A stretch of DNA of 64,000 bases, taken from the NCBI GenBank assembly GCA_035536915.1, contig DATLNE010000047.1, positions 1-64,000 of the forward strand. Direction: 5' to 3'. The translations under genes and the position numbers were made by a program. Numbering within the stretch: the first letter of the stretch is position 1; every line of letters starts with the position of its first letter. Origin of the DNA: Acidimicrobiales bacterium (lineage in GTDB: Bacteria > Actinomycetota > Acidimicrobiia > Acidimicrobiales > JAHWLA01). Shown here one piece after another: positions 13,949 to 59,139 of this stretch. The notes beneath the pieces were generated by a model. It was not told where the DNA came from and searched no databases. It saw only the letters and a list, made by a program, of their open reading frames with translations.

Positions 13949-14515
13949 TCAGGGTGTGAGCTTCGGGTACGTCACCGTGAGGTCGCCGACGAGTGGGAAC
14001 GTGGTGGCCGTGCCCGCTGCGCATTCGGCGGGGGGCGGCACCACGGTGAGGGCGCCGAAGACATCGCCCACCTCGCCCGTGGCGTGCCGACGGGCGTTGC
14101 CCCGAACCACCCACTCGGTCCCGACCGCCGTGAATGTGAACTCCAGCAGGTGCGCCTCGCCGACGGCGTCGAGCAGGCCGCCTGACCCTCGCCCCGTGGC
14201 CAAGCCGCAGTAGCCCCGGTATGCCAGCGAAAGGACGACCGAACACGGCGACGGCAGGCACGTCGCCTGGCTGAACGAGCCCATGCGCAGGGCGCCGCCT
14301 TCCACGCTGAACGGGGGGCCGAGCTTGCCGAGAAAGGGCGGCGGGCTGGGGATGATCGGCGGGGGGCAGGAGGCGGCGCCCGTGCACGGCGCCTGCACCG
14401 GCCCGTTCAAGGTGAGCGTGCCCGTCACCACCACCGTTGTGGCGCCCACGGCCTGCGCAGGCGGCGCCCACGCCAGTGCCGCCGCACATGCCGTCGCTGC
14501 CCAGCGAAGTCGCAT
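13949..14515 (-). CDS. Secreted protein of unknown function
   Basis: 188 residues from ATG 14515; an upstream in-frame start is rejected because the N-terminus from 14515 is a clean signal peptide (MRLRWAATACAAALAWAPPAQA). The mature part is beta-rich, with four cysteines and a proline loop (PPPIIPSPPPFLGKLG). It ends in a segment starting VVPPPAECAAG. No family recognised. It lies 19 bases upstream of glgP on the same strand, so the two may share a transcript, and is divergent from the glycosylase gene with 95 bases between starts. Confidence 0.75.
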   Translation of the reverse strand: MRLRWAATACAAALAWAPPAQAVGATTVVVTGTLTLNGPVQAPCTGAASCPPPIIPSPPPFLGKLGPPFSVEGGALRMGSFSQATCLPSPCSVVLSLAYRGYCGLATGRGSGGLLDAVGEAHLLEFTFTAVGTEWVVRGNARRHATGEVGDVFGALTVVPPPAECAAGTATTFPLVGDLTVTYPKLTP

Positions 14516-14610
14516 CGCCCGCACCCCCCGTTTGCCTACAAGGGTACGCGGCCGGCGCGCCTTCCGCCTCCCGTGCACCGCTCGCCGGAACGCGCCATGC
14601 TCGCCCCGCC

Positions 14611-15228
14611 ATGGACGACCCCGCCGCCCACATCGCCGCTGCCGACCCGGCGATGGCCGCCCTCGTCGACGAGGTCGGCCCGTGCACGATGACGTTGCGC
14701 CGGCAGGCGGGCGGCTACTTCGCTGCCTTGGCCCGGGCGATCCTCTACCAACAGCTCGCAGGCAAGACAGCAGCAGCCATCCACGGCCGCTTCCTTGCCC
14801 TGTTCCCGGGAAAGCGCCCCACCCCCGAGGGCGTGCTCGCCTTGGCCGACGAAGCGCTGCGGGGGGCGGGCCTGTCGAACGCCAAGATGCTGTCGATCCA
14901 AGACCTGGCCGCCAAGGTGCTCGACGGCACCGTCCGCCTCGACGGCATCAGCCGCCGGTCCGACGACGAGGTCGTGGCCCAGTTGTCGCAGGTGCGGGGC
15001 ATCGGGCGGTGGACGGCCGAGATGTTCCTCATGTTCCAACTGGGCCGCCCCGACGTGTGGCCCACCGGCGACTACGGCGTGCGCAAGGGCTGGGCAATCG
15101 TGCACGGCAGGACCGACGCCCTGCCCACGCCCGTCGAGTTGGAGGCGGCCGGCGAGGCCTACCGCCCCTACCGTTCGGTGGCCGCGTGGTACTGCTGGCG
15201 GGCGGTCGACGTTTCACCTCCGGCGTAG
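14611..15228 (+). CDS. DNA-3-methyladenine glycosylase II (AlkA-like, HhH-GPD)
   Basis: 205 residues. Base-excision repair enzyme that removes alkylated purines. The helix-hairpin-helix is at residues ~126-136 (LSQVRGIGRWTAE) followed by the catalytic aspartate Asp154 in WPTGDYGVRKG, both at the standard spacing. ARAILYQQLAGKTAAAIHGR (residues 41-60) is the conserved first helix region. It lacks the N-terminal AlkA_N domain of the E. coli enzyme, as is usual for the short actinobacterial form. ATG 14611 gives a family-like N-terminus. Confidence 0.9.
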   Translation: MDDPAAHIAAADPAMAALVDEVGPCTMTLRRQAGGYFAALARAILYQQLAGKTAAAIHGRFLALFPGKRPTPEGVLALADEALRGAGLSNAKMLSIQDLAAKVLDGTVRLDGISRRSDDEVVAQLSQVRGIGRWTAEMFLMFQLGRPDVWPTGDYGVRKGWAIVHGRTDALPTPVELEAAGEAYRPYRSVAAWYCWRAVDVSPPA

Positions 15229-15273
15229 GCGTGGTAGGCCAGTGGGAGTGATCCGTCTTCAGCGCGTTTGCCC

Positions 15274-16928
<1,655 letters not shown>

Positions 16929-16932
<4 letters not shown>

Positions 16933-18212
16933 ACTTCGACGCACTCCTGCCCGCCTACCTCGGACGCCAGCGCTGGTTCGCGGGCGAGGAGCCCGAGAAG
17001 GTCGTGGTGCAGGAGGACGAGGAGCTCGTCCCCGGGCTGCACTGGCTGCTGGTGGAGGCCGACGGCGCCCGCTACCAACTGGTGATCGGCCTGCGATCTG
17101 CGGACGACCCGCCCGAGTACCTGCACGGGCACGAGCCCGCCATCCTCGGCGCCGTCGACGGCCAAGTGGCCTTCGATGCCACCATCGACCCCGAGTACGC
17201 CAAGGCGCTGCTCACTCAGGTGGCCCCCGACCAAGAGGTAACCCACATCCGGCCCATGAACGTGGAGCAGTCGAACTCCTCGTTGATCGCCGACGACCGC
17301 CTGGTGCTCAAGCTGTTCCGCCGCTTGCAGCACGGCCCCAACCCCGACATCGAGGTCACCGAGGGGCTGGCCCGCGCCGGCTTCCTCCACGTCGCCGCGC
17401 CCTTGGCCATGTGGGAGTTCGAGGGGTCGCACCTCGCCGTTGTGCAGCCCTACCTGTCGAGCGGCTCGGAGGGATGGGCACTGGCGCTCGGCAGCTTGCG
17501 CGACCTCTACGCCCGCGCCGAGGAGGGCCACACCGACCCGGCCGAGGCCGGCGGCGACTTCGCAGGCGAGGCGCGTCGGCTGGGCGAGGTGACGGCCCGC
17601 ATGCACGTGGCGCTGGCCGAAGCGTTCGGCACCTCGCCGGGCCACCCGACGGGCTGGGCGGCCATGGCACGGGCGCAGTTGGACCGCTTGCGGCCGGGCG
17701 ACATCGACGCGGGCGCGGCGGGGGCCTTCCTCGACCGCCTGGCGTCGATCACGGACGCGGGCGCCGCCATCCGGGTGCACGGCGACTACCACCTGGCCCA
17801 GGTGCTGCGTACCGACGCGGGCTGGTTCGTCCTCGACTTCGAAGGTGAACCCGCTCGGCCGCTGGAGGAGCGCACGCTGCCCAGCTCGCCGTTCAAGGAC
17901 GTGGCCGGGATGCTGCGGTCCTTTCACTACGCCGCCCAGGTCACGCTGACCGAGCGGGAGCCGCTCCAGATGGAAGCGGTCGCCGGACTCGACGAGGCAT
18001 GGGAGCAGCGCAACCGCCACGCCTTCTGCGAGGGCTATTTCGGCGTCGACGGAATCGAGCGGCTGCTGCCTGCCGACGAGGAGTCGCGGGCCGTGCTCTG
18101 CGCCGCCTTCGAGCTCGACAAGGCGGTCTACGAGGTCTTGTACGAGCGGGCCCATAGACCCGACTGGGTCGACATCCCGCTGCACGCCATCCGGCGCCTG
18201 CTCGCCGGTTAG
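16929..18212 (+). CDS. mak: Maltokinase
   Basis: 427 residues from ATG 16929, overlapping the treS stop by four bases. It phosphorylates maltose to maltose 1-phosphate with ATP. The fold is kinase-like: [21 protein letters not shown] in the N-lobe, then [11 protein letters not shown] with catalytic Asp286 and [12 protein letters not shown] with Asp303. The N-terminal cap ([12 protein letters not shown]) is typical of Mak/Pep2. In many actinobacteria it is fused to TreS; here the two are separate. Maltose 1-phosphate is normally the substrate of GlgE, which is not present in this window. Confidence 0.93.
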
Positions 18213-18226
18213 AGGAGGTCCAGCAC

Positions 18227-20410
18227 ATGGCTGCCCAACGGGCGCGCAAGGTCGACCCGGTGGCCGAGGCCATCGGGCGGCTGGTGGAAGGGACGCACGG
18301 CGACCCGCACTCGGTGCTCGGCGTGCACGACGGCATGGTGCGGGCCTGGCGGCCGGGAGCCACTTCCATGCGCGTGCTGGTCGGTGGCGCCGTGCCAGTC
18401 GACATGGAGCGGGTGCACGAGGCAGGCGTCTTCGAGGCCAAGGTGCCCGACGGCACGACCGAGTACGTGCTCGAAGCCACCTACGGCAGCGAGACGCATA
18501 CCTACGAGGATCCCTACCGTTTCTGGCCGACGTTGGGCGAACTCGACCTCTACCTGCTGGGCGAAGGCCGTCACCGCGACATGTGGCGGGTGATGGGGGC
18601 GCATGTGCGCGAGCACCAAGGCGTGCGGGGCACGTCGTTCGCGGTGTGGGCGCCGAACGCCCGGGCCGTGCGCGTCGTCGGCGATTTCAACATGTGGGAC
18701 GGGCGTCTCATGCCGCTGCGCACCATGGGGTCGTCGGGGGTGTGGGAGGTGTTCGTCCCCGGCGTGGAGGCGGGCAGCCGCTACAAGTTCGAGATCCTCA
18801 CCGCCGACGGCGACGTGAACCTGAAGGCCGACCCGTTGGCCTTCGCCGCCGAGCAGTCACCGGGCACGGCCAGCGTGGTGTGCGAGTCGTCGTACTCGTG
18901 GGGCGACGACGAGTGGATGGCCCGGCGCGACGCGGCCGACCACCTGGCCGAGCCCATGTCGGTGTACGAGTTGCACCTGGGCTCGTGGCGCCGGGTGCCC
19001 GACGACGGCGACCGCTCGTTGACGTATCGCGAGCTGGCCGAGCAACTGCCCGACTACGTGGCCGACCTCGGCTTCACCCACGTCGAGCTCATGCCCGTGG
19101 CCGAGCATCCCTTCGGCGGCTCGTGGGGCTACCAGGTGTCGTCGTACTTCGCCCCGACGTCGCGGTTCGGCAGCCCCGACGACTTCCGAGCGCTGGTCGA
19201 CGCGCTGCACGCCCGAGGCATCGGCGTCATCGTCGACTGGGTGCCGGCGCACTTCCCCCGAGACGAGTGGGCGCTGGCCTGTTTCGACGGCACCGCCTTG
19301 TACGAGCACGAGGACCCCCGCAAGGGAGCGCACCCCGACTGGGGCACCCTGGTGTTCAACTTCGGGCGCAACGAGGTGCGCAACTTCCTCATCGCCAACG
19401 CCCTGTACTGGGTGGAGGAAATGCACATCGACGGGCTGCGGGTCGACGCCGTGGCGTCGATGCTCTACCTCGACTACTCCCGCAAAGAAGGGGAGTGGGT
19501 GCCCAACGAGTTCGGCGGGCGCGAGAACCTCGAAGCGGTGTCGTTCCTCAAGGAGATGAACGAAGAGGTCTACGGCCGCCACCCCGGCGTGATGACGATC
19601 GCCGAGGAATCAACCGCCTGGCCCGCGGTGTCGCGGCCGACATACCTGGGCGGGCTCGGCTTCGGGTTCAAGTGGAACATGGGGTGGATGCACGACACCT
19701 TGGAATACTTCTCCAAGGACCCCGTCCACCGGCGGTTCCACCACAACAACCTCACCTTCGGGTTGCTGTACGCCTTCACCGAGAACTTCGTGCTGCCGCT
19801 GTCGCACGACGAAGTGGTGCATGGCAAGGGCTCGTTGATCAACAAGATGCCCGGCGACGAGTGGCAGAAGCGGGCCAACCTGCGGTCGTTGTACGCCTGG
19901 ATGTGGGCGCACCCCGGCAAGCAACTTCTGTTCATGGGTGCAGAGATGGGGCAGGTGCGGGAGTGGTCGCACGACCGCTCGCTCGACTGGCACCTGCTCG
20001 ACGACCCCGGCCACCGCGGCATCTACGACCTGTTGCGGTGCCTCAACCGCGTCTACCGCAACGAGCCCGAGCTGTGGGAACGCGACTTCCAGCCCGACGG
20101 CTTCCGCTGGATCGACGCGGGCGACGTGGAGAACAACGTGCTGTCGTTCCTGCGTTACTCGGCTGACGGCTCACGGGTGTTGGCCTGCGTGGCCAACCTG
20201 TCGCCGGTGCCGCGCGACCGCTACCGCATCGGCCTGCCCTCCGGCGGCACGTGGCGGGAGGCCCTCAACACCGACGCCGTCGAGTTCGGCGGCAGCGGCG
20301 TGGGCAACGGCGGCGAGGTGTGGGCAGGCGACAGCTCCTGGCACGGCCAGCCCTTCTCCACCGAGATGACGCTGCCCCCGCTGGCCGTCGTCTGGCTCAC
20401 CCCCGCCTGA
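18227..20410 (+). CDS. glgB: 1,4-alpha-glucan branching enzyme
   Basis: 727 residues; strong ribosome site AGAGGAGG upstream of ATG 18227. Two N-terminal carbohydrate-binding beta-sandwich regions ([31 protein letters not shown]) precede the GH13 barrel. Catalytic residues are Asp407 in [15 protein letters not shown], Glu460 in [11 protein letters not shown] and Asp528 in [15 protein letters not shown]. It cuts alpha-1,4 chains and re-attaches them as alpha-1,6 branches. Placed 14 bases after maltokinase, it is the third gene of the treS-mak-glgB unit. Confidence 0.96.
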
Positions 20411-20500
20411 CCGCGGCCCGCCGAACTTGTGTAGCGATCGCGCCGTTTTCCGCGTCGTTCTGTCCGCAGCTTCGGGCGGGAGCCCGGTACCGTCGGGAGG

Positions 20501-22786
20501 GTGAGCAGTCCCACCCTCGTCGTCCACGGCCACTTCTACCAACCTCCGCGGGAGAACCCGTGGACGGAAGAGGTGGCTCGCGAGGTGTCGGCGGCGCCGT
20601 ACCACGACTGGAACGCCCGCATCACCGCCGAGTGCTACCGCCCCAACGGCGTGGCTCGCATCGTCGACGACGCCGGGCGGGTGGTGGCCATCGTCGACAA
20701 CTACGAGCACCTCTCGTTCAACATGGGGCCGACGCTGCTGGCGTGGCTGGAGCGCCACGCCCCTGACGCCTATGCCCGCATCCTGGCCGCCGACGCCAAG
20801 ACGGGCGGCGCCATGGCGCAGGCCTTCGGCCACACCATCCTCCCGCTGTCGAACGAGCGCGACCTGCGCACCCAGGTGCGATGGGGGCTGGCCGACTTCG
20901 AGCACCGCTTCGGACGCCGCGCCGAAGGCATGTGGCTGCCTGAGGCGGCGGTCAACGACGAGGTGCTGTGCGTGCTGGTCGAAGAGGGCGTGCGTTTCAC
21001 CGTGCTCGCCCCGGGCCAAGCCGCGCCGGCATTCCAACCGGTCGACACCTCGATCGTGCATCGCTGGGCGCACCCGGGGGGCAAGGGCGAACTGGCGATC
21101 GTCTTCTACGACGGAGACCTTTCACATGACGTCGCCTTCGGCCTGAGCACGCTCGCCCCGCAAGCCTTCCTCGACCGCATGGGCGGCGGCCTGGTGACGG
21201 TGGCCACCGACGGGGAGACGTTCGGGCACCACCACCGATGGGGCGAGCGCTTCCTTGCCTATGCGCTGTCGGTGGAGGCCCCTCGTCGCGGGGTCGAGGT
21301 GCAGAGCCTGGTGACGGTGGTCGCCTCCCGCCCGGCCACGCACGACGTGCAGGTGGCCGAGAGCGCGTGGTCGTGCGCCCACGGCGTGGGCCGCTGGCGC
21401 GACGACTGCGGTTGCTCGACGGGGGGCGAGCCCGGGTGGAACCAGCGCTGGCGGGCGCCGTTGCGGTCCGCCCTCGACTGGCTGCGCGACGAGGCGGCGG
21501 CTGTTTTCGAACGGCGAGGCGGCAGCGTCCTCAAAGACCCTTGGGCCGCTCGCGACGACTACGTGCGCGTGCTGGTCGGCGCCGAGTCGCGGAACGACTT
21601 TGCCGCGCGTCATGTGGTGGGCGACCCGGTGGAAGCGTTCACGTTGCTTGAGTCCCAGCGCCACGCCATGGCCATGTACACGTCGTGCGGCTGGTTCTTC
21701 AACGACGTGGCGGGCTTGGAAACCGTGCAAGTCCTGCGGTACGCCGCTCGGGTCGTCGACCTGCTCGTCGAGCTCGGAGAGCCCTCGCCGGAGCAGGCTT
21801 TCGTCGATCGGTTGGCGGCAGCGGAGAGCAACCGGCTGGAGGAGGGCAACGGGCGCGACATCTGGAGTCGACACGTCGTGCCCGCCCGGGTCGACGCCGC
21901 CCGAGTGGTCGCTCACCTCGCCCTGCTCGAACTGCTGGAGCGGCGGTCGCCCGCGTCGCGCATCGGTGCCTACGACATCGAGGTGCTCCACCACGACCAC
22001 GCCGACCGCGGGCCGCTCGCCCTCTGCACCGGCGCCGTCCGCCTCACCCACATGCGAACCGGCCGCACCGCAGAGCACGTGTACGGGGCGCTGCACCTCG
22101 GCGGCCTGGAAGTGCTCGGCGCCACCCGCCCCGTCGACAGCCGGCTCGACGACGACGCCGCCACGTTGCTGCGCCAGGCCTTCGAACAAGGGGCGCCGGT
22201 GACGACTCTCCTGCGCATGGTCAGTTCGGGGTACGGGCCACACGAGTTCGGGCTGGAGGACGCCCTGCCCGACGCGGCCGACGAGATCCTGCGCAGCGCG
22301 GCGCGGGAGTTGGCCGACCGGTTCGCCGGGGCCTACGAGCGCCTGTTCGCCGACCACCACGGCCGCCTCGCCGCGCTGGCCGCCGCCGGCTACCAGCTCC
22401 CACCCGAACTACGGGCGCCCGCAGAACTGTCGTTGGCCCGCCGTTTCGAAGCCGAGGTGGCCGCCGCCGGCGGGTCGAGCGACCCGGCCGCCTACCAGGG
22501 AGCCGTCGCCATCGCCCGCCAAGCCCGCCGCGAGGGCTACCGCATCGACACCCCTGAAGCGCTCCAGACCATCGAACGCATCCTCACCGAGGCCGTCGAA
22601 CGAGCGGTCGCCGACGGCGACGTCGATGCCCCGTTGGCGCTCCTGGCGCTGGCTGCCGACCTCGACCTGCGCCCCAACATCGAACCGGCCCAAGAGATCG
22701 TCTACGAAGCGGTGCAGCACGACGGTCTCACCGAGCACCTCGCCGCCCTCGCCCCCGCGCTCAGCCTCGCCGTCCCGAGTACATAG
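20501..22786 (+). CDS. GH57-like glycoside hydrolase with DUF3536 domain
   Basis: 761 residues from GTG 20501 (upstream GGGAGG). The N-terminus LVVHGHFYQPPRENPW is the GH57 first motif (HGHFYQP), and GMWLPEAAVNDEV carries the expected nucleophile Glu148. The C-terminal half is the DUF3536 domain found with this family. GH57 enzymes act on alpha-glucans as amylases or branching enzymes; the precise reaction is not known to me. Its position 90 bases after glgB argues for a role in glycogen trimming. The protein ends P-S-T with the stop codon inside a long palindrome. Confidence 0.85.
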   Translation: MSSPTLVVHGHFYQPPRENPWTEEVAREVSAAPYHDWNARITAECYRPNGVARIVDDAGRVVAIVDNYEHLSFNMGPTLLAWLERHAPDAYARILAADAKTGGAMAQAFGHTILPLSNERDLRTQVRWGLADFEHRFGRRAEGMWLPEAAVNDEVLCVLVEEGVRFTVLAPGQAAPAFQPVDTSIVHRWAHPGGKGELAIVFYDGDLSHDVAFGLSTLAPQAFLDRMGGGLVTVATDGETFGHHHRWGERFLAYALSVEAPRRGVEVQSLVTVVASRPATHDVQVAESAWSCAHGVGRWRDDCGCSTGGEPGWNQRWRAPLRSALDWLRDEAAAVFERRGGSVLKDPWAARDDYVRVLVGAESRNDFAARHVVGDPVEAFTLLESQRHAMAMYTSCGWFFNDVAGLETVQVLRYAARVVDLLVELGEPSPEQAFVDRLAAAESNRLEEGNGRDIWSRHVVPARVDAARVVAHLALLELLERRSPASRIGAYDIEVLHHDHADRGPLALCTGAVRLTHMRTGRTAEHVYGALHLGGLEVLGATRPVDSRLDDDAATLLRQAFEQGAPVTTLLRMVSSGYGPHEFGLEDALPDAADEILRSAARELADRFAGAYERLFADHHGRLAALAAAGYQLPPELRAPAELSLARRFEAEVAAAGGSSDPAAYQGAVAIARQARREGYRIDTPEALQTIERILTEAVERAVADGDVDAPLALLALAADLDLRPNIEPAQEIVYEAVQHDGLTEHLAALAPALSLAVPST

Positions 22787-22818
22787 GTCACCGAAACGGT
22801 AACCTATGTACTCGGGAC
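22772..22818. terminator. Palindrome between convergent GH57 and SRPBCC genes (copy 1)
   Basis: Perfect 17-base arms (22772-22788 and 22802-22818) enclose a 13-base centre that itself has a 4-bp ACCG/CGGT stem with an AAA loop. It carries the GH57 stop codon in its left arm and the end of the SRPBCC reading frame on the other strand. It can fold in both directions and probably ends both transcripts, though there is no U-tract. A closely similar element lies at 59077-59119. Confidence 0.75.
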
Positions 22819-23207
22819 TGCAGCGTCCGCAGGTTGCGGCGCCAGACCCACACCAGCACCAACCGGGCCACCGGCGGCACCATCCACCACGGGAACTCCA
22901 GCGTCTCGTCCCACTCGAAGCGACAGCGCGACGGCCCCAGCGGCGTCAAGGTGAAACGGCCGGTGCCCTGCACGAGCCCCACATGGCGGATACCGATGGC
23001 CGAGCCCTCGACCCACTCCACGATCTCCATGCGGTCGACGGTCCGGAACGGGCCGACCACGGTGAGGCACTCGAAGGTCCGCTCCGAGGTGAAGGTGATG
23101 GAGCGGGCGTCGTGCATCCACTCGACGTGCGACGGGATGTCGGCCACGTAGTCCCACACCACCGAGGCGGGCGCGTCGAGATCGATGCCGACCCGCAGCC
23201 GCTGCAC
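22788..23207 (-). CDS. SRPBCC-family protein (polyketide cyclase/START-like)
   Basis: 139 residues from GTG 23207, which shares one base with the galT stop (TAGTG), so it is the second gene of a galT operon. The hydrophobic-pocket fold is indicated by VGIDLDAPASVVWDYVADI, a central segment with VGPFRTVDRMEIVEW and GTGRFTLTPLGPSRCRFEW, and a C-terminal amphipathic helix. Such proteins bind small hydrophobic ligands; ligand unknown. The last codons run through the palindrome at 22772-22818, so the C-terminus may have been altered by that element. Confidence 0.8.
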   Translation of the reverse strand: MQRLRVGIDLDAPASVVWDYVADIPSHVEWMHDARSITFTSERTFECLTVVGPFRTVDRMEIVEWVEGSAIGIRHVGLVQGTGRFTLTPLGPSRCRFEWDETLEFPWWMVPPVARLVLVWVWRRNLRTLQSRVHRLPFR

Positions 23208-24190
23208 TACTGGATGGCGACTTCGGCCCGCAGGTCCGACGCCGCCTGCTCGGGCGGCACCACGTTGATGAGCACGCCGGTGCCGAGCTCGAAGCCGGCC
23301 GTCGTCGTCAGCTTGGGCGCGATGTGCACGTGCCAGTGGAACGTGCTCGACGTGCGGTACGGCGCCGAGTGGAACACCAGGTTGTACGACAGGTCACCGA
23401 AGCGCCGCCGCAGCAGCGCCAGCACGTTGCGCATAGCCCGCCCCACTGCGGCCAGGTCGGCGGGCTCGGCGTGGTGCAGGTGCGGGTCGTGGCGCCGGGG
23501 CACCACCAGCATCTCGTAGGGGGTACCGCTCCAAAAGGGGCAGATGACGAGGCACCGGTCGTCGGCGTAGACGACGCGGTGGCCCACCTCCTCTTCGGCC
23601 TCGGCCGCCGTGCAGATGAGGCACGACCCTTCGAAGCGGGCGAAGCCCCCCAGCTCGTCGGAGATCTCCCGGGGCACGAACGGCATGCCCATGAGCTGGC
23701 CGTGGGGGTGGTCGAGCGACGCCCCCGCCTCCCGCCCGAAGTTCACGATGGCCTGGCTGTACCGCAGCCCCGGTTGGGCGGCATGTTCTTCAATGCGGTC
23801 ACGGATGGCCGCCATCACCAGGCCCGCCTGCGGGTCGGACAACTCGCTCCACGACAGGTCGTGGTCAGGCGAGATGACCAGCACCTCGTGGATGCCGCTG
23901 GCGGGCGCCTGCGTGAAGACCGGGCCGAGGTGGCTCACCACCATGGGGACCTTGCCCTCGAAGGCGGGGTAGAGGTTGGGCACCACCCGCACCAGCCACT
24001 GGCCGGTCGGCCCGTAGGTCTCCAGTGCAGGCGGCGTGGCCTCTTCGTTGCCCGGACAGAACGGGCAAGGCCGATCGGGGTCGCCGTGCACCGGCACCCA
24101 GCGGCTCTGGAAGGCCTGCGGCCGCCCCGCCCGCTCGTCGCTCATGACGACCCACCGACCGGTCAGCGGGTCAAGCCGCAGCTGGCTCAT
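23207..24190 (-). CDS. galT: Galactose-1-phosphate uridylyltransferase
   Basis: 327 residues from ATG 24190 (MSQLRLDPLTGRWVVMSDER), the conserved N-terminus; longer in-frame starts are rejected. Leloir-type enzyme moving UMP between UDP-glucose and galactose 1-phosphate. Zinc ligands are in CPFCPGNE, and the catalytic motif is His161-Pro162-His163 in ASLDHPHGQLMG, with further FHWHVHIAPK near the C-terminus. It heads a two-gene unit with the SRPBCC gene and is divergent from the PucR-type regulator with ~156 bases between starts. Confidence 0.92.
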   Translation of the reverse strand: MSQLRLDPLTGRWVVMSDERAGRPQAFQSRWVPVHGDPDRPCPFCPGNEEATPPALETYGPTGQWLVRVVPNLYPAFEGKVPMVVSHLGPVFTQAPASGIHEVLVISPDHDLSWSELSDPQAGLVMAAIRDRIEEHAAQPGLRYSQAIVNFGREAGASLDHPHGQLMGMPFVPREISDELGGFARFEGSCLICTAAEAEEEVGHRVVYADDRCLVICPFWSGTPYEMLVVPRRHDPHLHHAEPADLAAVGRAMRNVLALLRRRFGDLSYNLVFHSAPYRTSSTFHWHVHIAPKLTTTAGFELGTGVLINVVPPEQAASDLRAEVAIQ

Positions 24191-24346
24191 GCAGGGCGAG
24201 TCGTGGTCGGCACCGCTCCCCAACGTAGCGCTCTGCGTGGTCGTCGTTCTGCACCCTCGCCACCGCCCCTTGCGCGACCCCTGCCCGCAATGCCACCTTT
24301 TGTGCAGTTCCCGTGCATCGCCTGACGCGCACGAAGTGGGGGGCCA

Positions 24347-25669
24347 GTGCCCAACAGCAGTACGACAGCCGCACCGCCCGCCGATGTCGATGCCTTTCGG
24401 CTCGAAGTACTGCATCGGTTGCAGGGCACGTTCGAGGGACTCGTCGAGTCCATGTTCGACGACATCGTCGGCCATGTACCCGCCTATCAGGACGTCATCA
24501 CGCCCGCCGAGATGCACGACGTACGCAGCGCCCTGCGCCGCGCCGGCGGCTTCTTCCTGCGCACGTTGCAGGAAAACCGACCGCTCGATTCAGGCGAGGT
24601 CGTGGCCTTGCAGGTCATCGGCGCCCAACGAGCCCGCCACGGCCTGCCTCCTGAAGGGCTGACAGCGGCGATCCAGGCGGCCATGCGCACCGGCTATCGC
24701 CGCCTGTTGGAGTGCGCGCTGGAGGTCGAAGCGCCCACCGATGTGGCCGTGCGGGCCATGGGCGCCTTGTCGATGCGCCTCTTCGAGTTCGTGCAGGACG
24801 CCACAGGGGCACTGGTAGCCGGCTACATGGGCGAGGAGTCGCAGCGCCTCAGTTCCCGCCTCCGCGAACAAGCGGCGCTCGTCGACCGGCTGCTCGAGGC
24901 CAGTTGGACGGACGAAGACGAGATCCGCGGCCACGCCAAAGAACTCGGGTTCAGCGTCGAGGCGCCGCTCACCTTGCTCCTCGTCGCCAACGGTCGTTTC
25001 CAAGAGACGACGCCGTTGCGCTCCGCAGCCACACGGCTCGCCGAGCGCCTGCCCGGCGCCATCGAAGGCCCGGCCCGCCCGTCGCCGGTGCCCCACGTCA
25101 TCGTGGTCGTACCGGAAGCGGCCGCCCACCCGTGGGCGACGTTGTTGGCGACATGCGACGAAGTCGCCGCCGGCGAAGCCGTCTACGTGGGGTGTGCCAC
25201 GCCGGTGGGGCAACTCCTGTCGCTGTCCAGCGCCTACCGACGGGCGCAGGGCGACCTCCTCTACCTGTCGGCGGCGCGCACCGGCCACGGTGCCGTCGCC
25301 ATGAAAGACGTGAAGGCCTATCGCATCCTGGCCTGCGCGCCCTTGGAAGACCGCCTCGACTTCGTGCGCCAGACGCTCGGGCCCATCTTCGACCTCTCCG
25401 AAACAAAGGCGGTCGAGCTGCTCGACACGCTCGAATCGCTCTACGACAACCAGGGCCATTGTGCGGCTGTGGCGGGCGAATTGGCCGTCCACGAGAAGAC
25501 CGTCCGCTACCGGCTGCGCCGCGTGCAGGATCTCACCGGCCTGGCCATCGACGTGCCCGCCGACCGCCTGCAGCTAGACATGGCGGTGCGGCTTCGCAGG
25601 CTGGCCATGACGGAGGTGTCACCGTTCGACGATCCGGCGTGGGGCCCATCGTCGAGACGGCGCCGTTAA
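24347..25669 (+). CDS. PucR-type transcriptional regulator
   Basis: 440 residues from GTG 24347. The C-terminus (residues ~362-420) is the HTH_30 domain of the PucR/CdaR class: LYDNQGHCAAVAGELAVHEK and RYRLRRVQDLTGL. The N-terminal ~170 residues are a helical sensor-like domain, and the middle resembles the GGDEF-like linker of this class. Ligand unknown. It is divergent from galT and may control it, or act on the downstream unknown gene; the sequence does not decide. Confidence 0.82.
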   Translation: MPNSSTTAAPPADVDAFRLEVLHRLQGTFEGLVESMFDDIVGHVPAYQDVITPAEMHDVRSALRRAGGFFLRTLQENRPLDSGEVVALQVIGAQRARHGLPPEGLTAAIQAAMRTGYRRLLECALEVEAPTDVAVRAMGALSMRLFEFVQDATGALVAGYMGEESQRLSSRLREQAALVDRLLEASWTDEDEIRGHAKELGFSVEAPLTLLLVANGRFQETTPLRSAATRLAERLPGAIEGPARPSPVPHVIVVVPEAAAHPWATLLATCDEVAAGEAVYVGCATPVGQLLSLSSAYRRAQGDLLYLSAARTGHGAVAMKDVKAYRILACAPLEDRLDFVRQTLGPIFDLSETKAVELLDTLESLYDNQGHCAAVAGELAVHEKTVRYRLRRVQDLTGLAIDVPADRLQLDMAVRLRRLAMTEVSPFDDPAWGPSSRRRR

Positions 25670-25699
25670 ACGGGTAAAACACCCCCCTAAGCGTGCGGA

Positions 25700-25723
25700 A
25701 GTTTGTCCGAATGGACAGAAACT
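25700..25723. promoter_or_regulatory. Inverted repeat upstream of the DUF2325-like gene
   Basis: AGTTTGTCC and GGACagAAACT form an inverted repeat with a GAAT loop and a 2-base bulge, in an AT-richer patch between the PucR gene and the next gene. Candidate operator or transcript hairpin; no direct evidence. Confidence 0.3.
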
Positions 25724-25806
25724 GGATGTTCAATCCTGACGGGACGAAACGTTTTCGCTGACGGCAATTGCCACTTCCGGGGCGACGTCTAGCGTCCTCG
25801 TCACCC

Positions 25807-28416
25807 ATGCCGAAGCCCTCCGGCCACCGGGGTTGTCGTACCCGCGAACTCTTGCTCGCGTGTTCGGTCGACGACCTCCGGCATGTGTTCGAGCACGCCT
25901 CGGGCGACGAACTGGCGCCCGTGCTCTCGGCCCTGGGTGTGCAGAGCCGCTCGGCCGGTCGCAAGGCACCGCAACTGCTGCGTTCCCGGCTGCGCACGTT
26001 CGGCCACGAGGCGTGCCACGACGTCGCGTGCGTGCTGACGCAGCCCGTGATGCGGGCGCTGGAGGCCCTCGTCCCCGACGCCGACGGCGACCTGGAGCCG
26101 CAGCTGCAGGCGGGCGCCTTCGACCAGCTCCGGCGCGCATGGCCTGCCCCGCTCGTGCGCTTGACGGTGGAGACGCTCTGGCACCTCGACGACCTCGACC
26201 TGGCCCAACGCGACCGCTTCCTGGCGCTCGTCGAACAGCCACCGGCGGCGCCCCCCGCCGACGCCCCCGCCGACGTCCCTACCGGCGTGGTCGACGAGCC
26301 CGTCGTGGCGCCCCCGGCCCGAGAGCCCGACGCCCTTGACGCCGCCACCACTGCGCTCGACACCCTGCTCGCCGCCGCCATCGCCCGAGCCCGGGCGGGC
26401 TCGGCCGCCCTCGGCCACCTGGCGTCGTTGCGCATCGCCTTGGAGGAGCTGATCGCCCTCGACCCGGCGCGGCCCGCCGCTTGGTACCACTACGGCCTGA
26501 TCTCCGCCGTGATCGGTGACGAAGCAGGGGAGGTGTTGCAGCCGCTCCCCGGCCCGGCCCGCCTCTCGTTCGTACTCGGCCAGCTGCGAGGGCTGGTCGA
26601 CACCGACGCCACCGACCGTCTCGTGCGCATCGTGCGGCGCGAGCAGTCGGTGGTCGACGAGTTGCTTCGTCGACCCGAAGGCAGCGCGGTGGCCGGGCGG
26701 GTGGTCGTCGCCCACTTGGACGACATCCGTGCCGCCGCCCGTTTCCTGGGACTGGCGGCTGCGCCCTTCGACGGGTGGCAGGACGCCGCTCGCGAGGTCC
26801 ATCGTCGCGTCGACGCCTTGGTCAGCGCGGGGTCGGTGGTCGACGCCGAGCTGTTGTTGCGAGCGCTCGAAGAAGCGTTGTGGCAATGGGCCGCGGCCGG
26901 CGACGGACGGGGCCGCGGCTTCGAGGAAGCGGCCACCACCGCCCTGCTGCGGCGCGTGGTGTGCCGTCGTCGTCGCAGCGACTTCGTCGGCGCCTCGCGG
27001 CTCCTCGACACTGTCGAGGACGCCTTCTTGGCTCCTGACGCGCGCGCCGCGGCCGCGTGCGAACGAGCCCTCATCGGCGCTGAGATCCCCGGGTTGGAAA
27101 CGGTTCGTTTTCCACGCGGCGACGCCGAGCGAGCCCGCTTCGTCGAACGGCTCCGGCCGGTGGCGTCGCACCTGGCCGCGGCAGTCGACGCCGACCCCAC
27201 GCTGGTGACCGCCAACGTGTTGCTCGGCATGCTCCTCCACGCCGAGGGCGACGTCTCTGCTGCTCCCGCGCTGGCCACGGCGGCCGCCGGGTTGGCCGAG
27301 GCGCCCGAGCCGTTGCCCTTGGCCACAGAGGTCGACTTCCACGCCGCCCTCGCCCGCCTGCGCCTGCTGGAACCGGGTACCGACGAGGCCGCCTACCGCG
27401 ACATGGCTCGTGCCCTGGACGCCGGTTACGTGCCCGGCGCCGAAGACCTGGCCTCGGCGGTCGTGGCCTTGGAGGCGCACGGCTCGCCGCACGCGGGCGC
27501 CTTGTTGGCCGCTGCGCTGCGGGTGGCGCCTGCCGCGCCTGCGCTGGTGGAGTTGGTCGTCGGCCGCGCCCGCACCGGCGACGAGGCCGCCTGCTCCACG
27601 GCCGAGGTGGTGGCGGCCGACTCGGGCATGGCCCTGTCCACCCGCGTCGACCTGCTCGACGCCGCCCTGGTCGGCGCCGGCCTGCGCCGCGACACCGAAG
27701 CCGCCGAACGACTGGCGGGCTCGCTCGACGACGTGCTCGTGCGGGCGGGCGACGCCGCCCTCGACGCCCGCTTCGCTGCCCTCCTGGGCGCCGACGAAAC
27801 CCTGCGCGCCGCGCTCGACCCCGCCGCCGCCGACGCCTTGCGTCTGGAGGTGCTGCGGCGCATCGGGCGCATCGAAGAGGCGCGGGCCATCGCTTTGGCC
27901 ATGTTCTACCGAGCCGCGGGCGGGGGGTTGCGGGGCTTCGACGCCGCCGACCTCTTCCACGTCCTCGTCGAGCTGGGCCTTGCCCCGGCCGAGCTCGACG
28001 ACCTGGCCCGGCTCCTCCCCTCGCCCCCCGACGGGGGGGAGCCGGCCACTGGGCTCGACCGCCCCGTGCACGTGCTGTTCGTCGGCGGCAACGAGACCCA
28101 GGACCGTTACCGCACAGCCATCGACGCCTCGGTCGCCCTGCGTTACGACGGCAAGGTCCGCATCACGTGGTTCTTGTCGGGCTGGCGGTCGAACTGGCAC
28201 ACCGATGCGGCCCGCATCGAGGCGGCCTACGGGCAAGCCGACGCCGTGGTGCTCATGACGTTCATCCGCACCCACCTGGGCCAGCGCGTGCGGCGCAGCG
28301 CCGGTGATGCCGGGCTCCCGTGGGTGGCGTGCACCGGCCATGGCCGCGAGGCCATCGAGCGCGCCGTCGACCGTGCCGTCGCCATCGTGGGCGACCAGGT
28401 GCCCTCGGCCGGGTAG
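25807..28416 (+). CDS. Large protein of unknown function with DUF2325-like C-terminus
   Basis: 869 residues from ATG 25807 (MPKPSGHRGCRTRELLLACS). No signal peptide or membrane segment. The N-terminal ~130 residues form a helical domain (LACSVDDLRHVFEHAS, LLRSRLRTFG, LTQPVMRALEALVP). A proline/alanine linker follows near residues 145-180, then a very long alanine-rich helical region resembling TPR-like solenoid. Residues ~753-860 look like DUF2325: VHVLFVGGNETQDRY, then ADAVVLMTFIRTHLGQRV and GLPWVACTGHG, a Rossmann-like fold with a glycine-rich first turn. I do not recognise the full architecture. A hairpin follows the stop. Confidence 0.75.
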   Translation: MPKPSGHRGCRTRELLLACSVDDLRHVFEHASGDELAPVLSALGVQSRSAGRKAPQLLRSRLRTFGHEACHDVACVLTQPVMRALEALVPDADGDLEPQLQAGAFDQLRRAWPAPLVRLTVETLWHLDDLDLAQRDRFLALVEQPPAAPPADAPADVPTGVVDEPVVAPPAREPDALDAATTALDTLLAAAIARARAGSAALGHLASLRIALEELIALDPARPAAWYHYGLISAVIGDEAGEVLQPLPGPARLSFVLGQLRGLVDTDATDRLVRIVRREQSVVDELLRRPEGSAVAGRVVVAHLDDIRAAARFLGLAAAPFDGWQDAAREVHRRVDALVSAGSVVDAELLLRALEEALWQWAAAGDGRGRGFEEAATTALLRRVVCRRRRSDFVGASRLLDTVEDAFLAPDARAAAACERALIGAEIPGLETVRFPRGDAERARFVERLRPVASHLAAAVDADPTLVTANVLLGMLLHAEGDVSAAPALATAAAGLAEAPEPLPLATEVDFHAALARLRLLEPGTDEAAYRDMARALDAGYVPGAEDLASAVVALEAHGSPHAGALLAAALRVAPAAPALVELVVGRARTGDEAACSTAEVVAADSGMALSTRVDLLDAALVGAGLRRDTEAAERLAGSLDDVLVRAGDAALDARFAALLGADETLRAALDPAAADALRLEVLRRIGRIEEARAIALAMFYRAAGGGLRGFDAADLFHVLVELGLAPAELDDLARLLPSPPDGGEPATGLDRPVHVLFVGGNETQDRYRTAIDASVALRYDGKVRITWFLSGWRSNWHTDAARIEAAYGQADAVVLMTFIRTHLGQRVRRSAGDAGLPWVACTGHGREAIERAVDRAVAIVGDQVPSAG

Positions 28417-28426
28417 CCCCGGTCGA

Positions 28427-28463
28427 GGCGGGTGAGCCCAGCCCCCACGGGGCTCACCCCGCC
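28427..28463 (+). terminator. Hairpin after the DUF2325-like gene
   Basis: GGCGGGTGAGCCC pairs with GGGCTCACCCCGCC (one bulged C) 11 bases after the stop; no U-tract. A likely terminator for the upstream gene. Confidence 0.55.
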
Positions 28464-28642
28464 ACGAAGTCACCGCGCCGCCGGGCGTGCGGACGTCCCC
28501 CCGTTCGTCCGCACAACCCGGCCCCCCGCACTGCACGCAGTGCTCGGCGCGGTTCCCGGAGCGGGTGGGCCACCCCCCGACGGCCCGACCCGCTCCGGTT
28601 CCGTTTGGCACCGATCCCCCCGGCCGGTGCCCGTCGGAAACC

Positions 28643-29095
28643 TCAGCTCCCGCCAGGGGCCGCTCGCACGGTTCCTGCCGAGAGTTCCTCTGCCACCAAT
28701 GCCCGCAGCCGAAGGTATTCGGCTGCCTCCGTCGTCGATATGTGGAGGGTGAGGATGCCTTCGAAGGTGGCGTCCATCATCGTTATGTCTCCCGCCAGGA
28801 ACCGGCCGACGTCGCCAGGAGGGCCGTGGATCTCCATGTGCGGGTTGAACTCCGGTCCCGAGCGGGTCATGACGTGGCCCTCTCGGGTGAAGGTGATGCG
28901 GTACGACAACGGCGGGTTGCCCAGGTCGATCGCCACGCGAAGCGAGCGGCCACCCAGGGCATCGGCAATGGCGTCGCGTCGGAGGCGCAGGCGGTCGAGG
29001 CAGGCACGGACGACGGCATCCGGCGACGAACAGTCCCGGAATTGGTTCGTCTCGCCTGCATCGTCCATCCGCTCTCCCACACGCATAGGTTTCAT
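28643..29095 (-). CDS. SCP2/sterol-carrier-like small protein
   Basis: 150 residues. The middle has the SCP2-like pattern of a hydrophobic-ligand carrier: LRVAIDLGNPPLSYRITFTR, then NPHMEIHGPPGDVGRFLAGD and MMDATFEGILTL. ATG codons at residues 1, 4 and 10 are all possible starts; the longest is given. Ligand unknown. It is divergent from the small secreted gene, with 183 bases between starts. Confidence 0.6.
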   Translation of the reverse strand: MKPMRVGERMDDAGETNQFRDCSSPDAVVRACLDRLRLRRDAIADALGGRSLRVAIDLGNPPLSYRITFTREGHVMTRSGPEFNPHMEIHGPPGDVGRFLAGDITMMDATFEGILTLHISTTEAAEYLRLRALVAEELSAGTVRAAPGGS

Positions 29096-29134
29096 CTAGT
29101 ACTTCGCAAATCGTCCGAAAAAGTGTCGGTCACC

Positions 29135-29166
29135 CACGAAATAATCCTGTGACCAGGACTTTCGTG
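29135..29166 (+). promoter_or_regulatory. Hairpin in the divergent promoter region of the small secreted gene
   Basis: CACGAAA + TCCTG pairs with CAGGA + TTTCGTG around a TGAC loop, with small bulges. It lies 113 bases upstream of the GTG at 29279 and 40 bases from the divergent SCP2-like start. It may be an operator or a leader-RNA structure. Confidence 0.4.
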
Positions 29167-29278
29167 CGTGAGCGTCGAAGTTTTGAGGAGTCGGGTCGCC
29201 TGGCGAGCCTCGACGCGAACCCCCTGAAACCAGCGCAGTGCTCCCCTGGAGCCTGCGCGTACAGAGAGGAACCCCCTC

Positions 29279-29578
29279 GTGTCTCGCAGCCCTCTTCGAC
29301 GGTCGCGGCTTCTTGTCGTCGCCGCGCTGTCCCTGACCGGCGCTCTGCTCGCAGTTGCCGCGCCGCCCGCACAAGCGGACTGCGCTCGGGCGTCGGTGTG
29401 GATCTACAAGTCGAGGCAGGGCCGTGAGTACAAGTACGGCCCCTACCAGTGCGTGGGTCCGAACAACGGGCATCCGAACACCGGCTATGCAGGCTGGGGG
29501 ACGGGCGACAACACATACCCATATGGGGTGCCGTCCGGAGGCGGCGCCGAAGTTTGGGTGCCCTTGCCGCTGCCCTAG
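29279..29578 (+). CDS. Small secreted two-cysteine protein
   Basis: 99 residues from GTG 29279, preceded by GAGAGGAA. Signal peptide LLVVAALSLTGALLAVAAPPAQA, then a mature part of ~65 residues with Cys35 and Cys58, rich in Gly, Tyr and Asn (YKYGPYQCVGPNNGHPNTGY). No family recognised; the layout is like small actinobacterial secreted peptides stabilised by one disulfide. It converges with the ECF sigma gene so tightly that both stop codons share the bases CTAG. Confidence 0.7.
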   Translation: MSRSPLRRSRLLVVAALSLTGALLAVAAPPAQADCARASVWIYKSRQGREYKYGPYQCVGPNNGHPNTGYAGWGTGDNTYPYGVPSGGGAEVWVPLPLP

Positions 29579-30639
29579 TCGATGGGCGGCGGCGTCCCAA
29601 TCTCGTCGACGGCAGCGCAGCCGGTCGTCCGGACTGCGCTGCCGTTGCACTCGATTGTGACGATTCCCCAGGTCCAACGGTCCGTGCCTGGGGTTGTGAC
29701 CTGCGAGTCGAACTGCGCGCCAGCCTGATTGCCTGTACGGCCGATGCTTGCCGATGTCGTGACACCGGTCCGGTCTGGCTGCGGGTCCGTTGACGTGACT
29801 CCATCGCTTCCCGCTGTGGCCGTAACGGGAGCCACGGGGCGCGGTTCGTCGGTGAGGTTCGTCTGGGAACTCGGTTGCGCAGTGCTCGTTTGCACGCGCT
29901 CCGTCGCGCTCGTGGGGGCCGTGCGCACCGCGGGGACAGCGGCGATGGCAACGACAGCCACGGTGGTCGCCGCCGCGCCAACGCCTGCCATGTGGCCGCC
30001 GACAAACGCCTGGTAGCGCTGCAGCCGCTTCCGCATGCGGTTGAGCAGGCCGAGAACCATGAAGCCGCCGAACAGCCCTGATTCCCGCTCGAAGCCCATG
30101 TAGCTTGTCTTGAAGTTCGTGCGGGCACGAGCGAGCGCCGACTTCACGGCGTCGGGCGTCATCTGCTCGGCATTGGCCACGCCCTCGTAGCTCATGCCCT
30201 CGATCGTCACCAGTTGGAGCAACCGCCGCTGGCGCGTGTTGAGGCTGGCGAAGGCGTGCTTGATGCCGACCCGTCGGGCTCGGTTGAGCAGTTCTTCCTC
30301 CACCGAGTCGAGCGACGCCACGTCGATGTCGTCGACGGTCTCGTCGGCCGTCTCCAAGGTGCGGAACTGCAGGCGCTGCAGGTCGGCTGCGGTGCGCAGC
30401 GCGATCGTGATCAGCCACGGCTCGATGGGCCGACTCGGATCGATCGAGGCCCGGTTCTTGAACGCCCGCAGGAAGGTCTCCTGCAGGACGTCGTCGGCCA
30501 GTGCGGTACCGACCCTGCGCTCGACGACGCGGCGCAGCTTCGGCGCGTGCATGTCGTAAAGAAGCTCCCAGTCGAGTTCGGGCGCCACCTCGCCCGCTAC
30601 GACGTGCACTGCATTCCCCGACGGTGCGAACTTGGCCAT
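29575..30639 (-). CDS. ECF sigma factor with membrane segment and exported tail (1)
   Basis: 354 residues from ATG 30639, preceded by GGAGG at 7-base spacing. Region 2 is at residues ~25-90 (LYDMHAPKLRRVVERRVG, DDVLQETFLRAFKN), region 4 at ~128-178 (ASLNTRQRRLLQLVTIEG, AVKSALARARTNF). Unlike ordinary ECF factors it continues through a membrane segment (~216-238) into a Thr/Pro-rich tail ending with Cys331 and Cys341 (C-X9-C). So the factor may be membrane-tethered and sense an external signal itself, without a separate anti-sigma protein; that is inference. A paralogue lies just upstream. Confidence 0.88.
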   Translation of the reverse strand: MAKFAPSGNAVHVVAGEVAPELDWELLYDMHAPKLRRVVERRVGTALADDVLQETFLRAFKNRASIDPSRPIEPWLITIALRTAADLQRLQFRTLETADETVDDIDVASLDSVEEELLNRARRVGIKHAFASLNTRQRRLLQLVTIEGMSYEGVANAEQMTPDAVKSALARARTNFKTSYMGFERESGLFGGFMVLGLLNRMRKRLQRYQAFVGGHMAGVGAAATTVAVVAIAAVPAVRTAPTSATERVQTSTAQPSSQTNLTDEPRPVAPVTATAGSDGVTSTDPQPDRTGVTTSASIGRTGNQAGAQFDSQVTTPGTDRWTWGIVTIECNGSAVRTTGCAAVDEIGTPPPID

Positions 30640-30771
30640 GCGGCCACCTCCCCGAGCCCCCGCCACCGTATGGCTCGTCACCCGGTTGGTTCAAGCCGGA
30701 ATCGCCGTATTCCTCCTATCTGTCGGTTCGTAGGCGACGATCCGTCTCACTCTGATGGCTATGCATGGCGG

Positions 30772-31818
30772 TCAGGGGGCGAGCCCTCCTGGCGCTCTGA
30801 CGCTCTCCGGCGGACGTGCCGCAAAGCAGGCCGTCCGACTGACCGTGCCGCTTTGGCAATGCACTGTGGACTCGCTTGTATCCCGAGTGTCGTGGGTGCC
30901 GCCTGCTGTCCGCAGCTTCGTCGACACCGAGAACTCCTCGTCGTCGTTGACGGTCGTGACGTCTGCCTCGGTCGTGTACCCCGCTGTTGTAACCGGGCGA
31001 AATGCCTCGGGGGAGGCCGCGCCGTCGACTGCGGGGCCGTCACCTGGCCGTGCGGCCGACCCGCGGTTCGACGCCTGGGGCACCAACGCCTTTGCCTGAT
31101 TCCCTTCGGCCGGCGATGACGACCGAGCGACTGCCGGCAGCGCAGCCTCGGGTGACGCGACTGGCGGGCGTGCGAACGAGGCAGCCCCGCCGCCGCTCAT
31201 CAGGACCGACAGGCCGAGCGCCCCAGCACATGCGGCGGGCACCAGACCGACCTGGTCTGCCAGTGCCTGCAGGCGGGCGAGCCCCGCTCGCAATCGGCCG
31301 GTCAACGAATAAGCGAGCCCGCCCGTTCCGAAAACCCCGGTCTCACGGGAGACGGCCAGATAGCGGGTGCGAAACGCTCGCCGCCCGCGGGCGAGGGCGG
31401 ACTTCGTCGCAACCGACGAAGAGACCGCGCCCGGTTCCATAAAGGCGGCGATCAGGGCTTGGCGCTGCCGCACGGTCAACTCGCCGAGGACGTCGGAGAT
31501 CGCCTCACGGCGGATGCCGTTGATGACGGCGTCCTCGACGCCCTCGTGGCGCGCGTCGAGGTCGACGACCTTGTGCAGCAGGCGCGTGCGGGCGTCCTCG
31601 TTGCGGACCGCGTCGATCGCTGCGCGGCGGGCGACGGTGGTCAACAACGACCGCAGCGGCCTTCCGGGCTCGATCGTGTCGCGACGGCGGTAGACGCGGA
31701 AAAACGTCTCTTGGACGACATCGTCGGCAACCGCCTCACCGGCGAGCCGCCGCGCGAGCCGGCGAAGCCGCGGGGCCTCGGCAATGAAGACAGCTGTCCA
31801 ATCAGGTTCTTCGGCCAT
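30772..31818 (-). CDS. ECF sigma factor with membrane segment and exported tail (2)
   Basis: 348 residues from ATG 31818 (upstream GGAGGGGAG). Region 2 is at residues ~12-75 (DDVVQETFFRVYRRRD), region 4 at ~108-155 (GELTVRQRQALIAAF). It is paralogous to the next gene on the strand: both share E-[ST]-G-[LV]-F-G after region 4, an RLxAGLxRLQA-like helix, a hydrophobic segment (~188-214) and an exported tail with C-X9-C (Cys321, Cys331). 132 bases separate the two genes. No anti-sigma gene is seen nearby. Confidence 0.87.
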   Translation of the reverse strand: MAEEPDWTAVFIAEAPRLRRLARRLAGEAVADDVVQETFFRVYRRRDTIEPGRPLRSLLTTVARRAAIDAVRNEDARTRLLHKVVDLDARHEGVEDAVINGIRREAISDVLGELTVRQRQALIAAFMEPGAVSSSVATKSALARGRRAFRTRYLAVSRETGVFGTGGLAYSLTGRLRAGLARLQALADQVGLVPAACAGALGLSVLMSGGGAASFARPPVASPEAALPAVARSSSPAEGNQAKALVPQASNRGSAARPGDGPAVDGAASPEAFRPVTTAGYTTEADVTTVNDDEEFSVSTKLRTAGGTHDTRDTSESTVHCQSGTVSRTACFAARPPESVRAPGGLAP

Positions 31819-32030
31819 CTCCCCTCCGTTCGGCGCCGTCCCCGAGGCAGGGTGGGTTCCACGTGCCGATGCGGATGTCCTCCTGTGGTGGGCGTTCCGA
31901 AAGAGATTGGAGAAATGCCGACCCTTTTCGCCCTCCTCGTACGAACAGGAGGCACGCGGGAGCGAAGGTCCGCGAGGTAGTTCGACTCGCGGGCCGCGCT
32001 CCCGTCGCGGCCCGCCGTAGCCTGGGGGCG

Positions 32031-48491: not shown

Positions 48492-48526
48492 GTGCAAAAA
48501 GGGTCGCCAGGCGACCCTTTTTGCAC
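48492..48526. terminator. Strong bidirectional terminator
   Basis: Perfect 16-base arms, GTGCAAAAAGGGTCGC and its complement, with a CAG loop, four bases after the esterase stop. It gives A- and T-runs on both sides, so it can end transcription in either direction. Confidence 0.9.
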
Positions 48527-59089: not shown

Positions 59090-59119
59090 CTCACCGAACC
59101 GGTGAGCTATGTACTCGGG
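59077..59119. terminator. Palindrome between the LAxTG gene and ilvD (copy 2)
   Basis: Perfect 19-base arms (59077-59095 and 59101-59119) around GAACC. The core CCGAGTACATAG / CTATGTACTCGG and the CACCGAA centre are the same as in the element at 22772-22818. As there, the left arm carries the upstream stop codon (reading P-S-T-stop). It lies 20 bases before the ilvD start. Likely a terminator, or a dispersed palindromic repeat. Confidence 0.75.
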
Positions 59120-59139
59120 GTGCGACGTATCCTCGCTTC

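Follow-up and report, generated by a model that had tools for sequence, protein, structure and literature searches.

REP-like palindromes at gene 3′ ends in Acidimicrobiales: a possible RNA stem-loop role and possible concerted overwriting in place

The genome of an Acidimicrobiales bacterium (G000; 3.23 Mb in 54 contigs) carries dozens of copies of a short palindrome that sit mostly at gene 3′ ends and share sites with a sister species, usually with the central sequences exchanged. From sequence comparison we infer both a role and a copying process: with moderate, roughly even confidence, we propose that these are REP-like palindromes that mark gene 3′ ends, act as stem-loops in RNA, and are overwritten in place in a concerted manner.

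Two copies lie in the window, the whole 64,000-nucleotide stretch of DNA analyzed here, at the places where a sequence-only reading had put them. Copy A (22772-22818, neither strand assigned) has the sequence GTCCCGAGTACATAG-GTCACCG-AAA-CGGTAAC-CTATGTACTCGGGAC and forms 21 of 22 pairs around a 3-nt loop, or 22 of 22 once a G-U pair on the minus strand is counted. Copy B (59075-59121, likewise without strand) contains a perfect 20-bp stem at 59077-59119. The exact-arm pattern was matched twice in the window and never in 100 shuffles. RNA folding gave one hairpin for each copy, with free energies from -36.5 to -40.7 kcal/mol and a z of about -10. An Rfam search of the whole window returned 0 matches at the gathering score, and copy A was absent from the output of a consensus terminator scan of 14000-33000. 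We note a perfect hairpin of a different kind at 48492-48526, 3 nt past an ORF end at 48488. Its stem includes A- and T-tracts, and it looks like an ordinary bidirectional terminator of the same genome.

Both copies overlap the ends of genes. The left arm reads CCG-AGT-ACA-TAG and encodes the P-S-T-stop end of both upstream ORFs, as the sequence-only reading had recognized: in copy A, the TAG at 22784-22786 terminates the plus-strand DUF3536/GH57-like ORF 20501-22786, and in copy B, the TAG at 59087-59089 terminates the plus-strand ORF 58427-59089, which has no Pfam match. Copy A also contains the end of a convergent minus-strand frame, the SRPBCC-like ORF 22788-23207 (Pfam Polyketide_cyc2), the last residues and stop codon (22788-22790) of which are encoded by the element. 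Downstream of copy B, ilvD (dihydroxy-acid dehydratase; 59140-60831, plus strand) starts after 18 nt, and a −10-like hexamer of the TANNNT form, TATCCT (59128-59133, plus strand), lies 12 nt ahead of its start. TANNNT is given as a form of the sigA −10 element in a passage of PMC3526491, and a leaderless promoter may lie just behind copy B.

The two copies belong to a large family. In G000, the arms GAGTACATAG..CTATGTACTC were matched exactly 24 times, always with a 17-nt spacer although spacers of 10 to 30 nt were allowed, and 36 times when up to 3 mismatches were accepted at 17-nt spacing, compared to 0 times for a reversed-pattern control. A covariance model, R1, found 39 places in G000, one of them 48 nt long, and G001, a genome of the same genus, has 48 places; nearly all of these copies are 47 nt long. 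Elsewhere there were 53 places in G008, about 22 in G010, and 9 in G006. The sequence-only reading, which would have been refuted had the genome held these two copies only and relatives none at the same genes, was right that the palindrome is dispersed and repeated at gene 3′ ends. When 84,980 species genomes were scanned for the exact arms, a search that may leave out G000 itself, the metagenome-assembled Actinomycetota bacterium 0813_bin7 was the one other genome hit (26 contigs). With a multi-lineage model, R2, matches were obtained in 19 of the 397 genomes of the order and in 3 of 396 genomes in a sample of the phylum, namely, G000 and two genomes with one weak place each; neither of the two fetched loci contains the family-type GAG..CTC palindrome. 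At the gathering score, Rfam matched nothing in five loci, and its sub-threshold matches were chance-like and mostly microRNA-like. Membership in a known RNA family was therefore rejected for the window and the five loci at that score.

The unit consists of 15 outer pairs, about 6 to 7 tip pairs, and a 3- to 5-nt loop that is mostly A/T, such that up to 22 pairs are formed. In an alignment of 36 G000 copies, 92.3% of cells were paired and two-sided changes numbered 107, compared to 36.6 after shuffling. In an alignment of 33 copies from 7 genomes, 93.3% of cells were paired, two-sided cells numbered 150 compared to 44.8 after shuffling, and GAG/CTC was invariant. Slid controls paired at 27 to 46%, and in both alignments one-sided (G-U) pairs were almost absent beside the many two-sided changes. 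The center is variable yet self-complementary, and a double-stranded protein site would not require such pairing; the earlier suggestion of a plain protein-bound site leaves this property unexplained. The CACCGAA center shared by copies A and B is one among many tip types and does not characterize the family. Tip subfamilies are present in each genome, and loops differ inside one tip type, indicating that the copies are not recent identical clones. Related dialects keep a GAG-NNN-AT..-CTC frame and the unit length while the letters change, with GAGTAAATAG and GAGGAAATAG in G010, GAGGACATGG in G008, GAGGCAATAG in G006, and further dialects in four other members of the order (G002, G134, G161, and G219). 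A CGTC start, symmetric with GACG, is found in many copies of the source genus and is missing in the other dialects (CTCCC, TTCTGG, and AACTCG).

Placement relative to genes was determined with a home-made codon-bias caller in place of standard annotation, and the counts took in 38 or 39 of the 39 places in G000, 43 or 45 of 48 in G001, 25 of 53 in G008, 19 of about 22 in G010, and all 9 in G006. A gene 3′ end lay inside the element or within 20 nt of it at 34 of 39 places in G000 and 40 of 45 in G001, and the same was true of 14 of 25, 17 of 19, and 5 of 9 places in G008, G010, and G006, respectively. Of 54 genes facing an element in G000, 29 stopped 0 to 10 nt before the unit and 15 stopped inside it. 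The TAG of the arm (the −15 class, frame 1) ended 11 of the 54 (9 with P-S-T and 2 with R-S-T) and 11 of 57 facing genes in G001. Thus, the claim that the palindrome carries the stop codon is true of frame-1 genes, but most genes stop 0 to 10 nt ahead of the element.

Convergent junctions are preferred. Convergent, codirectional, and divergent gaps accounted for 17, 19, and 2 elements in G000 (n = 38), against 10, 76, and 14% of background junctions, and for 15, 27, and 3 elements in G001 (n = 45), against 18, 64, and 18%. Convergent gaps were therefore enriched about 4-fold in G000, and divergent gaps were rarely occupied. Many codirectional gaps leave merely 13 to 26 nt to the next start. 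Flanking pairs named by Pfam include SOR_SNZ/SNO (pdxS-pdxT), CbtB/CbtA, Lhr/Fapy glycosylase, and TruB/riboflavin kinase, and gene pairs of these kinds are usually cotranscribed. At the pdxS-pdxT, cbtB-cbtA, and lhr-fpg copies, the next start is no more than 17 nt away and a −10-like hexamer is absent; for pdxT, the sole nearby start seems to be an ATG in the right arm of the element, in both G000 and G001. Other codirectional gaps, including that of ilvD behind copy B, have a −10-like hexamer 9 to 15 nt ahead of the start. Placement both at convergent ends and in operon-type gaps indicates that the family marks transcript borders and cistron borders alike.

Elements at matching junctions of two species were compared. 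As most loci of G001, G008, G010, G006, and G066 were chosen because they surround an element, sites common to two genomes are over-represented, and pair counts show the sharing of sites and give no retention rate. Matches of 110 nt or less or below 74% identity were left out of the locus BLAST, and matches of 150 nt or less were left out of another comparison. On this basis, 13 of the 39 G000 places were matched by an element at the corresponding site of G001, 1 (L012/L047) was bracketed without it, and the rest either had no usable match among the fetched loci or were matched elsewhere. In the 13 pairs, the inner 19 nt were 0.640 identical, compared to 0.637 for nonorthologous pairs (permutation P = 0.49), whereas the outermost 5 + 5 nt were 0.854 identical, compared to 0.791 (P = 0.0007). 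Only two of the pairs had identical tips (L003/L135 and L032/L126). The same was seen in a second genus, where 14 pairs between G010 and G066 gave a tip identity of 0.466 compared to 0.444 (P = 0.18) and an outer-base identity of 0.779 compared to 0.622 (P = 0.0003). Moreover, the tip had switched nearly genome-wide, with CTCGCC in 16 of 20 G010 copies and GGTGTC in 27 of 33 G066 copies.

Between these genomes, 5 of 6 tip positions differ, and on both sides, such that compensated point mutations arising separately at so many sites are not a credible cause. Independent compensatory mutation was rejected as the main cause, as orthologous tips were unlike at most positions and yet of recurrent types. 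The simplest account of the exchange would be copying between units. Single-position compensation was also found (CGTNCG variants in G001), and some copies have unlike halves, such as CGTGCC|GGTGCG in G000, which is what partial conversion would leave and what mutation could produce too. Some junctions were also common to members of different families, whose dialects differ: lhr|fpg carried four tips in its four genomes, ilvC|DUF559 was likewise occupied in four genomes, and topA|MFS and one convergent pair were each occupied in two. In these cases, separate insertions into the same hot junctions may be an alternative. One G008 copy, L083, has G000-type arms on both sides and a neighboring gene with 80% protein identity to that of L012 in G000, above the identity of other cross-family pairs to G008; joint horizontal transfer of gene and hairpin is possible.

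The sequence-only reading had suggested that the palindrome may be mobile, a suggestion that sites common to species do not bear out. The only fully bracketed absence, L012/L047, was a difference of about 480 bp that included a small ORF and was not a clean 47-bp insertion. The L027/L051 alignment was one-sided, and L006/L060 and L010/L056 had a difference of about 1.1 kb beside the element. We note that gene-sized differences of 0.5 to 1.1 kb between G000 and G001 adjoin or separate elements (L010 1496-1842 versus L056, L006 versus L060, and L012 versus L047), so genes may have been gained or lost with the repeats as borders.

Many sites recur at the same genes in relatives, with the exception of copy A's own site. 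The G001 assembly had no match to the genes of the copy A junction, and the G001 contig ends short of the copy B site. The orthologous convergent gap of G008 contains, in place of copy A, a different hairpin with A/T-tracts. This hairpin, ACTTTTCCACAGC...GCTGTGGAAAAGT, lies in L183 near 1156-1214 and is repeated at L180:2091-2123 and L157:2420-2450 among the fetched G008 loci. In G010, the gap is about 65 nt and contains no long hairpin. The upstream protein ends at about the same place in G000, G008, and G010, indicating that the gene upstream of copy A was not truncated by the element.

In the account that we propose, a transcribed copy would fold into a stem-loop of about -37 to -41 kcal/mol at the end of a cistron. 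The stem-loop would be a 3′-end or intercistronic structure acting as a barrier to 3′-to-5′ decay, a pause, or a partial terminator. Between convergent genes it would be of use to transcripts from either side, and within operons it could be tolerated. What would matter is the structure of the stem rather than the sequence of the tip. Copies would be overwritten in place from other copies by short-tract conversion within the arms, a process that would homogenize each lineage while the sites stay put, although the homology shared by copies is short. More tentatively, the family could represent a system independent of a REP transposase that rewrites dozens of hairpins in place, in which a new inner palindrome spreads to nearly all sites of a genome, each lineage acquires its dialect at inherited 3′-end positions, and units of 17 to 40 bp evolve in concert.

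One observation leaves room for a DNA-based function. In codirectional copies read on the sense strand, the pooled mismatches were 11 G-U and 9 A-C (6:1 in G000 and G001 together, 2:5 in G008, and 2:3 in G010). Selection on the RNA stem should make G-U commoner than A-C; as it was not in the pooled copies, stem maintenance could be at the DNA level. The elements might then be sites at which a cruciform or single-strand hairpin is bound by a nucleoid, repair, or replication protein, with their 3′-end position a side effect, and the scarcity of one-sided pairs is consistent with that idea. We consider it very unlikely, as the tight coupling to stop codons and the convergent enrichment point to transcription and as a bidirectional RNA role would forbid G-U as well, G-U being A-C on the other strand.

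A rather unlikely but more substantial alternative is that the hairpin, perhaps with a factor that reads the arms, works as an intrinsic terminator that lacks a U-tract and acts in both directions. It would end upstream transcription, on both strands where genes converge. Enrichment at convergent gaps, the rarity of divergent copies, the location of elements 0 to 10 nt behind stops, and the unrelated hairpin with A- and T-tracts at copy A's junction in G008 all suit a terminator, as do the codirectional gaps with −10-like hexamers, where a new transcript might begin. The stable hairpin of an intrinsic (Rho-independent) terminator is present, but a T-rich tract was not found behind the stem, copy A escaped the consensus scan, and the same genome has an A/T-tract hairpin at 48492-48526. 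Moreover, the copies of the pdxS-pdxT, cbtB-cbtA, and lhr-fpg gaps are too close to the next start, and too devoid of −10-like hexamers, to sit easily with termination. The earlier suggestion of a terminator is thus plausible at convergent junctions, but the operon-internal copies and the missing T-tract weaken a strict terminator, and obligatory termination appears weakened as a role of the family. Less probable still, and in our judgment quite unlikely, is a selfish mobile palindrome of the MITE or REP type that uses gene 3′ ends as safe insertion places and has no host function. Numerous scattered copies that share a sharp core, the patchy spread within the order, and the subfamilies in every genome could be so explained, but the same sites are occupied in different species and some in different families, and the single bracketed absence is not a clean 47-bp insertion. 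In addition, the REP-associated tyrosine transposase (RAYT; Y1_Tnp, PF01797) had 0 matches in six carrier genomes (G000, G001, G006, G008, G010, and G025), which weakens RAYT mobility and rules it out as far as Y1_Tnp goes. The domain was present in 13 of 59 relatives, including G027, which has one element place.

REP-like repeats were recognized decades ago, and the present family bears on how those that lack a RAYT stay uniform. In the broad sense found in a passage of PMC12306157, a REP is extragenic, palindromic, short, highly similar, and multicopy, with a length of 14 to 40 nt in Escherichia coli. The family agrees with this definition: it has 39 and 48 places in the two genomes, is 92% paired, and lies for the most part outside ORFs, often overlapping their last codons. 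Its unit of 47 nt is slightly longer than the E. coli REP. According to passages of PMC3733652, REPs lie mostly between convergent or unidirectional genes, no more than 20 bp from 3′ ends. No transposase is dedicated to CGTC REPs, and there are also untagged REP-like families, including in Mycobacterium tuberculosis (PMC3733652). Like the GTAG and CGTC REPs described there, the present elements are short multicopy palindromes of convergent and codirectional gaps near 3′ ends; unlike those tagged REPs, with an 8- to 9-bp stem, a 4- to 5-nt loop, and a CCA tail, they are 47-nt near-perfect hairpins. The GTAG end is absent from every aligned copy, which sets the family apart from GTAG REPs, and it differs from CGTC REPs in that CGTC is confined to the dialect of the source genus, the stem is 20 to 22 bp, and there is no CCA tail. 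By its sequence features, the family fits a REP in the broad sense, outside the tagged classes.

REPINs, as portrayed in passages of PMC3116915, have conserved ends and a fixed-length folding spacer with compensatory changes, and they accompany RAYTs. The family resembles them in all but the last point, and unlike RAYT-linked REPINs, its many-copy carrier genomes are without a Y1_Tnp match; it also differs in being a single hairpin with fixed sites and replaced tips rather than a doublet of two REPs (PMC3116915). Intrinsic terminators of Bacillus cereus, described in passages of PMC5381666, share stem covariation and, where genes converge, use in both directions. In B. cereus, 89.5% of AU-GC switches went via G-U (68 versus 8 via A-C), unlike the 11 versus 9 mismatches found here. 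A Fisher test of the two ratios gave P = 0.001, which is no proof of a difference, as the data are of different types, namely, standing mismatches here and inferred intermediates there. Block replacement of the stem, family-wide arms, and the lack of a U-tract further distinguish the family from the B. cereus terminators (PMC5381666). Titles and abstracts found in literature searches, and passages of selected papers, contained no description of the family or of in-place tip replacement.

The TRIT motif of M. tuberculosis is reportedly a repeated hairpin without the usual tail near gene 3′ ends, and the family may be like TRIT as a repeated 3′-end hairpin in an actinobacterium. A "TRIT model" is in use in a passage of PMC3526491. 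Sister species with common sites but different inner palindromes allow movement and sequence replacement to be distinguished, so that conversion, transposition, and selection as modes of copying can each be tested on its own. Should the hairpins define 3′ ends, they would also offer a clue to how these uncultured actinobacteria end or protect messages without U-tracts.

A second palindrome family, CGTTCTGGTCC...GGACCAGAACG, was also observed. It is about 52 nt long with a 4-nt loop, constant outer arms, and variable self-complementary tips, and it too lies mostly at gene 3′ ends. Its sites in G001 are L036:1789-1840, L042:522-585, L048:6841-6892, L050:3046-3097, L053:5591-5644, L054:629-680, L059:1512-1563, and L060:3-54, and one site was seen in G000, at L005:37-86.
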